Source of the DNA: Kiritimatiellia bacterium
Lineage (GTDB): Bacteria > Verrucomicrobiota > Kiritimatiellia > RFP12 > UBA1067
Assembly (NCBI GenBank): GCA_017447805.1
Contig: JAFSMR010000019.1
Location: forward strand, 1 to 64,000
Direction of reading: 5' to 3'
DNA length: 64,000 nucleotides
Part shown: piece after piece, positions 1 through 9,063 of the stretch
How positions within the stretch are numbered: the first letter of the stretch is position 1
Layout of the letters: each line of letters opens with the position of its first letter
Notes under the pieces: model-generated
Told to the model about the DNA's origin: nothing
The model's input: only the letters and a program-made list of their open reading frames with translations
Database searches by the model: none
Made by a program: the position numbers and the translations under genes

Positions 1-465
1 GATGAAAACGAGGTGCAACCCCTCAAGAATATCGCCACTGTCTTGAGAGTGGACCAGCCTGTAGTAGTGGTAGTAGTCGTCCTTGTCTGGTTGGAAGTTC
101 TTGTTGACGAAATTGAGCGCATAGACAGGCTGGAGCAGATTATACTTCTCTGACTGCCCAAGCTGGCTCACATAAGCTTTTGAGGCGTTGAAAAGGACGC
201 GCTGACGGAAATCCGCCGTCCAGTTCATCTGCATCTCGACGATGAACTTGCGCCCGCCTGTCTCCTCGCAACGCACATCGACAATAGTGTTCTTGCCAAG
301 CGGGGTTTCAGGTACGAGTTCCGGCGGAAGATATTCTATCGACTCTACCTGTTTGCCCTCGTCAAGAGGCAACAAGGCATTTAGTAGGCTCATGACGAGA
401 TTTTTATGCTCGCCAAAAACCTTCTTGAATGTCACATCCGCCTTAGGATCGAGGTATTTTGCCAT
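1..465 (-). CDS. Rpn / PD-(D/E)XK nuclease-family protein (3' end outside window)
   Basis: The first 155 residues are visible and the rest lies beyond base 1. The N-terminal DVTFKKVFGEHKN stretch is typical of Rpn-type recombination nucleases, annotated as PD-(D/E)XK nuclease family transposases. The nuclease core is visible as Asp63 (VDVRCEE) followed by Glu77-x-Gln79 (FIVEMQM), the D...ExQ pattern of this fold. Members are DNA endonucleases, often multicopy and mobile-like. The start is set by a TAGGAG ribosome site 10 bases upstream and by an extended -10 promoter at 495-500. Whether the complete gene is intact cannot be seen. Family assignment is strong; biological role is unknown. Confidence 0.82.
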   Translation of the reverse strand, partial: MAKYLDPKADVTFKKVFGEHKNLVMSLLNALLPLDEGKQVESIEYLPPELVPETPLGKNTIVDVRCEETGGRKFIVEMQMNWTADFRQRVLFNASKAYVSQLGQSEKYNLLQPVYALNFVNKNFQPDKDDYYHYYRLVHSQDSGDILEGLHLVFI

Positions 466-494
466 ATCTTATTACTCCTACCGGGAGTGCCGAT

Positions 495-523
495 ATTATA
501 GCAAATTTTGCCTCGTATTTTAA
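495..523 (-). promoter_or_regulatory. Extended -10 promoter of the Rpn-like gene
   Basis: On the minus strand TGC-TATAAT (-10 hexamer at 495-500) follows an AAAATT tract. The -35 position, 17 bases further up at 518-523, reads TTAAAA and is weak. It lies about 30 bases before the start codon, leaving room for the TAGGAG site. Confidence 0.6.
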
Positions 524-555
524 TAGTGCCAAGCTATTTTCAGCATTTTTGGGCG

Positions 556-590
556 GCGCTTCGCGTCTGTTCAGAAGTTCAGGTATTTAG
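556..590. repeat. GCGCTTCGCG + GTTCAG repeat cluster, copy 1
   Basis: A GC-rich palindromic core GCGCTTCGCG (556-565) is followed by GTTCAG at 569-574 and 577-582. The same combination recurs at 985-1031 (opposite orientation) and 8844-8920. It lies in non-coding DNA and no reading frame is conserved among the copies. Confidence 0.5.
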
Positions 591-634
591 GGCCGGTCAG
601 CTCGCCCTACCATTCAACCTCTCTTCGTTATTCC

Positions 635-668
635 CAAGTGAGAATTTGCTGACCTATATTCTCACTTG
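635..668. repeat. Perfect 11-bp inverted repeat
   Basis: CAAGTGAGAAT at 635-645 and ATTCTCACTTG at 658-668 are exact reverse complements around a 12-base spacer. No U-tract follows on either strand, so it is not a classic intrinsic terminator. It could be an operator, a recombination site or a structured RNA. The rest of the 466-1026 gap holds only the promoter, the GTTCAG clusters and the 41-bp array. Confidence 0.6.
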
Positions 669-747
669 AAAACTTATCAAAAACCTCAAATATTCCCCTA
701 TAAATGGTTGTTTATCTCGAAATATTCCTAATGGAGGGAAAATCTTT

Positions 748-950
748 GGTAGATAGGGCCACCGCATTGCAATGGAGCTATCTACCATGGTCGATAGGGC
801 CACCGCATTGCAATGGAGCTATCTACCATGGTCGATAGGGCCACCGCATTGCAATGGAGCTATCTACCGTGGTCGACAGGGCCACCGCATTGCAATGGAG
901 CTATCTACCATGGTCGACAGGGCCATCGCAATGCGGTGGCGCTATCGACC
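748..950. repeat. Five-copy 41-bp palindromic tandem array
   Basis: Units begin GGT(A/C)GA at 748, 789, 830, 871 and 912 with an exact 41-base period; the last unit is 39 bases long. Each unit has outer arms (GGTAGATAG against CTATCTACC, perfect in unit 1) around a central palindrome CATTGCAATG, so each can fold as a hairpin or cruciform. Unit 5 differs internally (GCCATCGC facing GCGGTGGC) but still keeps a strong stem. Short open frames run through the array only because of its periodicity. It lies downstream of the CCA-HAD gene and could serve as its transcript end. Confidence 0.9.
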
Positions 951-984
951 AAAAACGAAACCTCCGCCACTTTTCTTACGGCAC

Positions 985-1031
985 CTTCGCGCCCTGAACA
1001 CCTGAACATCTGAATTTTCTGAACATCTAAA
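985..1031. repeat. GTTCAG repeat cluster, copy 2 (inverted)
   Basis: CTGAAC (reverse complement of GTTCAG) occurs at 994-999, 1002-1007 and 1019-1024, preceded by CTTCGCGCC. The cluster abuts the stop codon of the CCA-HAD gene. It is the mirror-image relative of the clusters at 556-590 and 8844-8920. Confidence 0.5.
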
Positions 1032-3045
1032 CGGCGGTCGCGGGGGCGAGTGCGAAATTTACTGCGGCGATTAGGGTGTCGAATGTCGGTGCGACTTTTT
1101 CCAAACGCCAATGGGCGTGACTACCCTGAGAACATAAGACACATTCTATGCCAAGAGCATCGGCGACTTCCTTATCGTGCAAAGCATCGCCTATCATCAC
1201 AAATCTGCCGACTTGCGGATGGGTTGCCTTGAGTTTATAGAGTAATCTTTTGGCTATATCGACTTTACTTGCGCCATCGAGATTGTTAACGCCAGCCAAA
1301 AGCTCCATTTTATCGCGAACACCGTAAAAAGCAGTATCGCGCTCAAGCAAATCTTGCCTAAGCGCCGAAAGGATGCATTGATCAACGCCGAATTCATCTA
1401 TGATTTTTATAGCTTCTAGCGCCTGTGGGTTAAGCGCCTTTACTTGCTCATGATAAATATCGTGATATTCTTGCGCTAAAGCATCCCAATCTTCATTTTC
1501 CAGGACAACGCCAATGGCTTTATAGAAAGGCTTGACGGGGAAAGCGAAGTTATCGCGATAAAACCCGAATTCGATTTTAGGCGCGTGGCGCTTTTCGAGC
1601 ATTATATTCAATGTATCGAAAGCAGCGCGAGTATCATCTAGAAGCGTTCCGTTCCAATCCCAGATTATATAAAGGGGCGTATGATTTTTCTTTTCCTCCA
1701 GCCACTTCAGCGCCGCTTCGCGGTCTTGGAATACACCATCAAGCTGCGCGCTGTAGGCTCGTTTCAAAATCTGGCCGAATTCTTTCGCCGGCTTCAATCC
1801 TAATGCAATCAAATCCCTGCCTTGCAACAGCGGCTTAGGGGCAGAATCTTTTACACGCAATCTTTGCGCCTCGGCTTCAAGCCATTCCAGCGGCGCGAAA
1901 TCTGGTTTCATGGGCGGACGCCCCTCCTCATCGGCCTTGCATACTCTTACGAGACGATCTATTCTCTTTACTTCCGAAGCGAGGCGCCTGATTGCGCTCT
2001 CGCCAGATTGAGAGCGCCACATCGAATATGGGCGCATGTGCAATCTTACGAGTGGCGGGACCTCTTTGAGAATCCGCTCTTCGTTCGTTAGACGGCGGAG
2101 GAACGAAAGAGCGAGCTCGACGCCTTTTTCATCGTGACCTAGCGAACGAATGCGACATTTCCTCTTATCGTAAAAACTCGTGGCAGGCTTGCCGAAATCG
2201 TGGCACAAGATCGCGAGCGCTACGATTATATTTTCGTCGTCATCTTGCGAAATCGCATCCCGTCCTTTTGCGAAAGCATCTAAAGCGCAAAGCGTATGAT
2301 TCCAGACATCCCCTTCCGGATGCCATTCTTTAGCTTGTTCACAGCCAATTAGCGCGGCGAGTTCCGGATAAAGCTTTACCCAATCGGTATTACGCAAAAA
2401 TTCGAGTCCTTTCGAAATCTTTTTTCCGCGCAAAAGAAGCTTTTTCCACTCTTCAAACTGCCGCTCCGGCGCGAGCGCTTCAAGCGTCATCGAGCGGCAG
2501 ATTTCGAGTGTCTCGCTAGCGGCAGTCAAATCGAATCTTGCGATAAATTGCATTCCTCGCAAAACTCTCAAAGGGTCTTCGCAAAAATGTTCCGAGACAT
2601 GACGCAATATGCCGCGCTTTAAATCTTTTTGGCCGTTCCAAGGGTCGATAATTTCGTCGGTAAGCGGGTCTTGATAAATCGCATTGATCGTAAAATCCCT
2701 TCGGGAGGCAGCTTCCTTAACGCTTAAGGACGGGTCGCATTCCACATCAAAAGCCTTATGTCCGAGCCCGAGTTTTGTTTCGCGCCGCGGCAGCGCTACA
2801 TCTATATCGTAATCGTGTAGTTTGATTACACCAAATGAAGCGCCGACTTCATCAAGATGGAACTCGCGCTCTAACGCCGCGCGCAAGGCCGCGCCTTCGA
2901 CGCCGAAAACTTCTATATCGCAATCTTTAGATTCGACGCCCAAGAAAACATCGCGAACACATCCGCCTACGAGAAGCGCCCTGCCGCCCAAATCGGCGGC
3001 TATTTTAGCGACATGCCTCGCGGCTTTCTTTGTTTCAGATTCCAC
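1027..3045 (-). CDS. cca: CCA-adding tRNA nucleotidyltransferase (HD) fused to a HAD phosphatase
   Basis: 672 residues. Residues 1-450 are a class II tRNA nucleotidyltransferase: GGCVRD at 27-32, the metal-binding DCDIE at 41-45, RRDFTINAI at 115-123 and the head/neck region to about 220. An HD hydrolase domain follows (H250; H282-D283 in CHDFGKP). It should add or repair the 3' CCA of tRNAs. Residues 458-672 form a separate Gph-like HAD domain with motif I DWNGT at 463-467, where Asn465 replaces the usual second Asp. The start is GTG, overlapping the htpX stop by 11 bases; it is the last gene of the gatB operon. The HAD substrate is unknown. The frame is continuous across the junction, so a genuine fusion is likely. 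Confidence 0.9.
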   Translation of the reverse strand: MESETKKAARHVAKIAADLGGRALLVGGCVRDVFLGVESKDCDIEVFGVEGAALRAALEREFHLDEVGASFGVIKLHDYDIDVALPRRETKLGLGHKAFDVECDPSLSVKEAASRRDFTINAIYQDPLTDEIIDPWNGQKDLKRGILRHVSEHFCEDPLRVLRGMQFIARFDLTAASETLEICRSMTLEALAPERQFEEWKKLLLRGKKISKGLEFLRNTDWVKLYPELAALIGCEQAKEWHPEGDVWNHTLCALDAFAKGRDAISQDDDENIIVALAILCHDFGKPATSFYDKRKCRIRSLGHDEKGVELALSFLRRLTNEERILKEVPPLVRLHMRPYSMWRSQSGESAIRRLASEVKRIDRLVRVCKADEEGRPPMKPDFAPLEWLEAEAQRLRVKDSAPKPLLQGRDLIALGLKPAKEFGQILKRAYSAQLDGVFQDREAALKWLEEKKNHTPLYIIWDWNGTLLDDTRAAFDTLNIMLEKRHAPKIEFGFYRDNFAFPVKPFYKAIGVVLENEDWDALAQEYHDIYHEQVKALNPQALEAIKIIDEFGVDQCILSALRQDLLERDTAFYGVRDKMELLAGVNNLDGASKVDIAKRLLYKLKATHPQVGRFVMIGDALHDKEVADALGIECVLCSQGSHAHWRLEKVAPTFDTLIAAVNFALAPATAV

Positions 3046-8843: not shown

Positions 8844-8920
8844 GTTCAGGGAGCGCTTCGCGCCGTTCAGGGCGCCTGCGGCGCGTTCAGCTAGTTCAGC
8901 TAGTTCAGATAGTTCAGATG
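8844..8920. repeat. GTTCAG repeat cluster, copy 3, with a 9-bp tandem repeat
   Basis: GTTCAG occurs at 8844, 8865, 8885, 8894, 8903 and 8912. The last four form an exact 9-base tandem (GTTCAGCTA twice, then GTTCAGATA and GTTCAGATG, 8885-8920). A GCGCTTCGCGC core lies between the first two. The rest of this gap (8921-9060) is low-complexity TTGTAG-like DNA without a convincing gene. Confidence 0.6.
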
Positions 8921-9063
8921 GTTAGTTGGAGTTACGAGTTGGAGGGAAGAGAGTGGAATTGGAAAGTTTATTTAGTTGTAGTTGTAGTCGTAGTTGTAGA
9001 ATGGAATTGTTAATTTTATTTGGTTTATAAATTAACGCAGAGTCGCTGAGTTTTTCGCGGGAG

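Follow-up and report, generated by a model that had tools for sequence, protein, structure and literature searches.

A dispersed array of 41-bp hairpins in a Kiritimatiellia bacterium, probably part of a BOX/BIME-like composite repeat

Introduction

The described systems closest to the repeat array reported here are the BOX elements of Streptococcus pneumoniae, the REP sequences with the BIMEs that they form, and the parS (sopC) locus of the F plasmid. BOX elements follow the plan boxA-(boxB)n-boxC with n variable (PMC3049150). REP sequences are found mainly near 3' ends and between unidirectional or convergent genes, and their tag, GTAG or CGTC at one end of the palindrome, is unpaired (PMC3733652). 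The sopC locus is made of twelve 43-bp tandem repeats bearing inverted-repeat ParB sites (PMC6238139).

The locus described here shares features with each. As in BOX, a dispersed, intergenic and hairpin-forming composite combines fixed end modules with a variable number of tandem middle modules (PMC3049150); we claim no relation of sequence. Unlike BOX, the middle module is itself a hairpin, and one of the end modules, the family B hairpin, is also amplified in tandem alone. As in BIMEs and REP sequences, short palindromes are joined into mosaic intergenic clusters (PMC3733652). However, the middle units (family A) lie in direct orientation, with only the core of the fifth unit inverted, whereas the REPs of a BIME alternate in orientation (PMC2817692); moreover, the genome has no match to a RAYT and the A arrays are not mainly located at 3' ends or between convergent genes. 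Finally, tandem repeats containing inverted-repeat sites recall sopC (PMC6238139), but that is a single, ParB-bound plasmid locus, whereas here there are many chromosomal loci and no known binder.

We favour, with some reservation, the reading that the array belongs to a species-specific, BOX/BIME-like composite interspersed repeat, in which a leader is followed by one to seven family A hairpins of 41 bp and then by at least one hairpin of the 42-bp family B. The repeat is probably non-autonomous and mostly neutral. It is not a RAYT-REP system, and a terminator role is unsupported. BOX/BIME-like mosaic repeats would thereby be documented in a bacterium whose genome has no match to the REP transposase.

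Results and Discussion

Five hairpins at an exact 41-bp period

The window, by which we mean the whole 64,000-nucleotide stretch analysed, carries the array near its left end, among the following features.

1..465, minus strand: Rpn-type nuclease gene (PDDEXK_2), cut by the contig end
669..747, plus strand: leader, the conserved upstream part of the composite repeat, ending in TTTGG at unit 1 (from BLAST of window 1-1200 against the other loci)
748..786, no strand: hairpin unit 1, arms matched, GGTAGATAG/CTATCTACC
789..827, no strand: hairpin unit 2, arms chimeric, GGTCGATAG/CTATCTACC
830..868, no strand: hairpin unit 3, identical in sequence to unit 2
871..909, no strand: hairpin unit 4, arms chimeric, GGTCGACAG/CTATCTACC
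912..950, no strand: hairpin unit 5, arms GGTCGACAG/CTATCGACC, core orientation inverted
956..991, no strand: lone hairpin CGAAACCTCCGCCACTTTTCTTACGGCACCTTCGCG of family B (42 bp), forming the right end of the composite repeat
1027..3045, minus strand: PolyA_pol/HD gene (tRNA nucleotidyltransferase-like) fused to HAD, a neighbour outside the element

At 747-951, Tandem Repeats Finder (TRF) counts 5.0 copies with a period of 41, 93% matches and a score of 340. With unit limits set by covariance-model matches, these resolve into five 39-nt hairpins at window positions 748-950, joined by 2-nt linkers at an exact 41-bp period. Both analyses thus confirm the five-copy hairpin array described in an earlier note on this DNA, and domain matches bear out the neighbours that it named, an Rpn-type nuclease gene (PDDEXK_2) and a CCA/HAD gene (PolyA_pol/HD/HAD). 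Given that unit 3 repeats unit 2 exactly and that the assembly is in 74 contigs, the count of units in the window may be inexact. A CRISPR layout is absent, the units being contiguous but for their 2-nt linkers and having no unique spacers between them, and an Rfam scan of the window gave no family match at the gathering score.

The same note had described each unit as a hairpin with outer arms. Hairpins they are, but the outer arms match perfectly in unit 1 only (GGTAGATAG/CTATCTACC); those of units 2-4 read GGTCGAYAG/CTATCTACC and contain one or two mismatches. Units 1-4 have the core CCACCGCATTGCAATGG in common, while the core of unit 5, CCATCGCAATGCGGTGG, differs at a single position from the reverse complement of the others and at four from the others themselves. 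The array strand folds at -118.9 kcal/mol, compared with -69.3 +/- 4.4 kcal/mol for shuffled sequences (z -11.2), a figure that only restates its palindromic make-up, as it would for any array of palindromes.

A composite repeat at 11 loci

BLAST and covariance-model searches of the bacterium's own genome (2.25 Mb in 74 contigs) place the composite at 11 loci with 44 units in total; a covariance model of the A unit gave no additional locus in the genome. The earlier note's proviso that the array might be found once only is therefore not borne out, and the copy number variation that it proposed looking for is plain, the loci having 5, 5, 5, 5, 6, 7, 3, 5, 1, 1 and 1 A units. The plan is leader-(A)n-(B)m, that is, a leader of about 80 bp, one to seven A hairpins and one or more B hairpins. 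Leader and B hairpin flank the A units at 10 of the 11 loci, the exception being the diverged array at C13, where both are missing. The array together with the roughly 80 bp before it recurs at C53, C61, C6:66.7 kb, C51, C29:10.6 kb and C29:94.4 kb, while C41, C35 and C32 have the leader with a single unit each. Similarity of the leader begins at about 665-702 in the copies without the Rpn block (C51, C29a, C41 and C35) and in C32; at C6b, similarity to the window begins at 634 (BLAST of window 1-1200).

The B hairpin extends well beyond these loci. When window 700-1000 was used as a query, its positions 257-293, corresponding to that hairpin, gave over 12 additional matches across the genome, many of which were 42-bp tandem arrays. 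The A elements are mosaic with families B, C and D, and the combinations leader-A-B, A-B-C and C-B are all seen. At L016:139-1743 one A unit is followed by six B units, adjoining a resolvase-family recombinase gene, and a 35-bp tandem repeat (L013:5953-6073) directly follows the seven-unit A array at C29.

Arm classes and growth of the array

The arms fall into classes according to the place of a unit in its array: first units have GGTAGATAG..CTATCTACC, last units often GGTCGACAG..CTATCGACC, and middle units GGTCGACAG..CTATCTACC. At position 4, every one of the 11 first or single units has A and none of the 33 others does (Fisher p 1e-10). G at position 36 is found in five of eight last units but is absent from the 25 middle units (p 2e-4). 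Both p-values assume independent units, an assumption that duplicated copies break, yet the diverged arrays at C29a and C13 show the same pattern. As a consequence of their arm combination, middle units have a standing C/T arm mismatch of one pair, seen in 25 of 25 cases.

These classes can be explained by an ancestor consisting of two individually matched hairpins, one with arms GGTAGATAG.. and the other with arms GGTCGACAG... The cores of these adjacent hairpins being almost identical, unequal exchange or slippage between them would then have turned the pair into an array, yielding middle units with a left arm from hairpin 2 and a right arm from hairpin 1. Presumably it is because the array grew by exchange between hairpin cores that the middle units keep their arm mismatch. 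Occasional polymerase template switching in the imperfect palindromes may in addition have re-homogenised arms and inverted cores; that process is known to invert spacers and to homogenise arms (PMC8604942). The changed middle of unit 5 looks, from its sequence, like such an inversion rather than a result of selection on structure. The last unit at C53 has a perfectly palindromic core in which the centre base is flipped. The arrays thus appear to hold a readable record of a hairpin pair turning into a tandem array.

The earlier note had argued that structure matters, since unit 5 keeps its stem. That argument is weakened by the mismatch in 25 of 25 middle units, which speaks against selection for well-paired units, as such selection would be expected to remove it, and by the pooled test for compensation in family A: among 30 distinct units neither pairing nor covariation rose above shuffled sets, 42 and 65 of 500 shuffles respectively being as high. 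Families B and D behave differently: in their gapless alignment pairing and covariation both exceed shuffles, and 0 of 500 shuffles reach the covariation score. Most of this compensation, however, comes from a single C-G to T-A pair by which D differs from B, and it could also be a product of template switching. Absence of compensatory substitutions, which the note would have counted against its reading, thus holds for family A and fails for the related B and D. More generally, the case serves as a warning that a preserved stem in a hairpin array can stem from template switching, not selection.

Absence from relatives and databases

The composite appears confined to this species. BLAST of the element against 60 congeners and a further 23 genomes of the order found no match, bearing out the possibility, raised in the earlier note, that the array is not conserved in relatives. 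A covariance model gave weak, isolated matches only in the relatives, the best (G036, E 3e-6) being without an array. Neither BLAST against phages and plasmids nor a pattern scan of viral contigs gave a match, and the pattern scan of GTDB contigs gave three single matches in unrelated bacteria, none with an array. A concatenated B+C+D query matched the own genome only, in a search that scored few candidates per genome, such that distant copies could escape. A literature search on 42-bp palindromic tandem repeats returned no match. Judged by these comparisons, the best reading is that the composite is species-specific, with no counterpart in the other genomes searched.

The 41-42 bp spacing and possible DNA binding

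We sampled stretches of this genome, 693 kb in all, without regard to repeats, the window being the one exception. Of the 14 non-coding tandem arrays that reach 120 bp there, 12 repeat every 41 or 42 bp or at twice that distance. Among relatives the corresponding figure is none of 11 in about 1.0 Mb. The arrays so spaced include families A, C (AATCAAAACCAAATATGGCAAAACAAGCGGTTGTTTTGCCAT and variants), D (GGACGAAGGTAGCGTCAAAATTCTGACGGTACTTGCGACCGT) and E (L122) and a B-like variant (L146). True B arrays come from loci retrieved because they match the window. By eye, A and D have outer arms of GGTMGA type in common and B and D a core, while C and E look unrelated. The family E array (L122:2999-3198) comprises about five hairpins of unrelated sequence, spaced at 41 bp with a period of 82. 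The relatives have non-coding tandem arrays of their own with other periods (44, 64 and 78 bp), at L171:619-741, L178:3982-4117, L170:5319-5475 and L187:1588-2066.

The common period could have been selected, inherited from one ancestor, or set by hairpin length plus a short linker. It amounts to about four helical turns. One tentative suggestion is that a shared process holds the unit length of these different-sequence arrays at 41-42 bp, either a DNA-binding or chromosome-organising protein phasing over four turns, or machinery other than RAYT that mobilises or amplifies hairpins of this length. Whether the spacing common to different-looking families is selected, through DNA phasing, or a by-product of how the arrays arose is a testable question.

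A more specific proposal is that a host or mobile-element protein binds each palindrome and that the spacing aligns its sites along the same face of the helix, much as partition centromeres or nucleoid-protein arrays do. The twelve tandem repeats of sopC offer a precedent (PMC6238139), and the recurrence of the period in 12 of 14 long non-coding arrays across families differing in sequence is in its favour. Yet those families have so little sequence in common that a single binder is hard to picture, the middle A units keep mismatched arms, the arrays are missing from all congeners tested, and the period may be just that of a hairpin and its linker. We consider a binding array unlikely, if worth keeping in view.

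Gene context and possible RNA-level roles

Six independent contexts are represented on the leader side (Rpn, MarR, a 1717-aa protein without a Pfam match, DUF6261, HepT and resolvase). In each of them the gene is encoded on the minus strand, which places the array upstream of it; this uniformity is suggestive only. On the B side, six loci have a minus-strand neighbour and two a plus-strand one (YafQ and MnmA). An orientation bias of the A arrays relative to the B-side gene, initially strong, was discarded when these two loci, with confirmed genes, broke it. Arrays of B, C and D are found in every gene context, with genes called by a longest-ORF rule.

The suggestion in the earlier note of a terminator array is unsupported: a scan of window 400-1100 found no terminator-like site, that is, a G+C-rich hairpin followed by a T run, in the array, and none of the A arrays was seen to separate genes that clearly converge. 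More broadly, the hairpins might act in the transcript, serving the upstream gene as a 3'-end terminator or as a block that stabilises its mRNA, or the downstream gene as a 5'-UTR structure. Such a role would suit the six loci at which both neighbours are on the minus strand, the compensation above shuffles in families B and D, and the better folding of the minus strand in 31 sequences out of a comparison set of 45 that included one spurious pattern match. The minus strand folds better because A-C mismatches turn into G-U pairs, and the units in this comparison are not independent. Weighing against it are the result of the terminator scan, the gene arrangement (two loci divergent, with YafQ and MnmA on the far side, and none clearly convergent), the occurrence of B, C and D arrays in all gene contexts and the failure of compensation in family A to exceed shuffles. 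An RNA-level element is accordingly rather improbable.

The composite mosaic repeat remains our preferred reading, favoured by the 11 loci, the variable unit number, the first, middle and last arm classes, the lack of a match in relatives and the lack of Y1_Tnp. Against it stand the 41-42 bp period across families of different sequence, which pure drift does not obviously predict, and the B/D compensatory change exceeding all 500 shuffles, though largely one B-versus-D pair. The array would be tolerated in intergenic regions upstream of accessory genes, mainly as a selfish or neutral sequence with at most mild effects on transcripts.

Rpn genes, REP/RAYT and possible mobility

A copy of the Rpn gene is found downstream of five of the 11 A elements. 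Conversely, upstream DNA is visible for six Rpn genes, and five of these are preceded by an A element in the same orientation at a distance of 236-286 bp, as might be expected were the array a target or control element of the Rpn nuclease. However, four of the five cases are accounted for by segment duplication, these copies having about 1 kb in common, including the start of the Rpn gene, at 85-94% identity; the fifth, at C32, is a more diverged Rpn locus that also has an A unit upstream. Furthermore, the other six A elements stand alone without an adjoining Rpn gene, the Rpn copy at C35 has no A element, and Rpn genes of congeners, up to 86% identical, show no such array within the fetched flanks. 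An Rpn-linked functional site is thus very improbable. Rpn-type genes here and in congeners have 21-bp repeats in or near their 3' part (L042:1858-1899, L053:1145-1242 and L055:1187-1252); in other bacteria that part encodes a separately translated antitoxin (PMC10327210).

Of the REP/RAYT-like element envisaged earlier, the dispersed, REP-like nature stood (11 loci, with 1 to 7 units) and the RAYT link did not: the palindromes are intergenic and dispersed and the GGTAG opening unit 1 recalls the GTAG tag of REPs, but Y1_Tnp (RAYT, PF01797) has no match in the 93%-complete genome, in a search whose control was positive in 5 of 14 genomes, and the GTAG lies inside a paired outer arm, being replaced by GTCG in later units, whereas the REP tag is unpaired (PMC3733652), so that a REP/RAYT system is hardly tenable.

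We infer that the composite may move as a unit. Inspected by eye, its two ends (about 669 and 991) are not clearly complementary to each other. Copies may have spread partly by duplication of larger segments that included Rpn, and partly through some mobiliser or form of recombination. Another interspersed repeat, made of CTGAACATC / GTTCAG 9-bp units, is found at window positions 560-595, 992-1035 and 8844-8923, as well as at L130:12426-12576 and L148:18138-18232, and in the window it occurs on both sides of the block formed by Rpn and the array.
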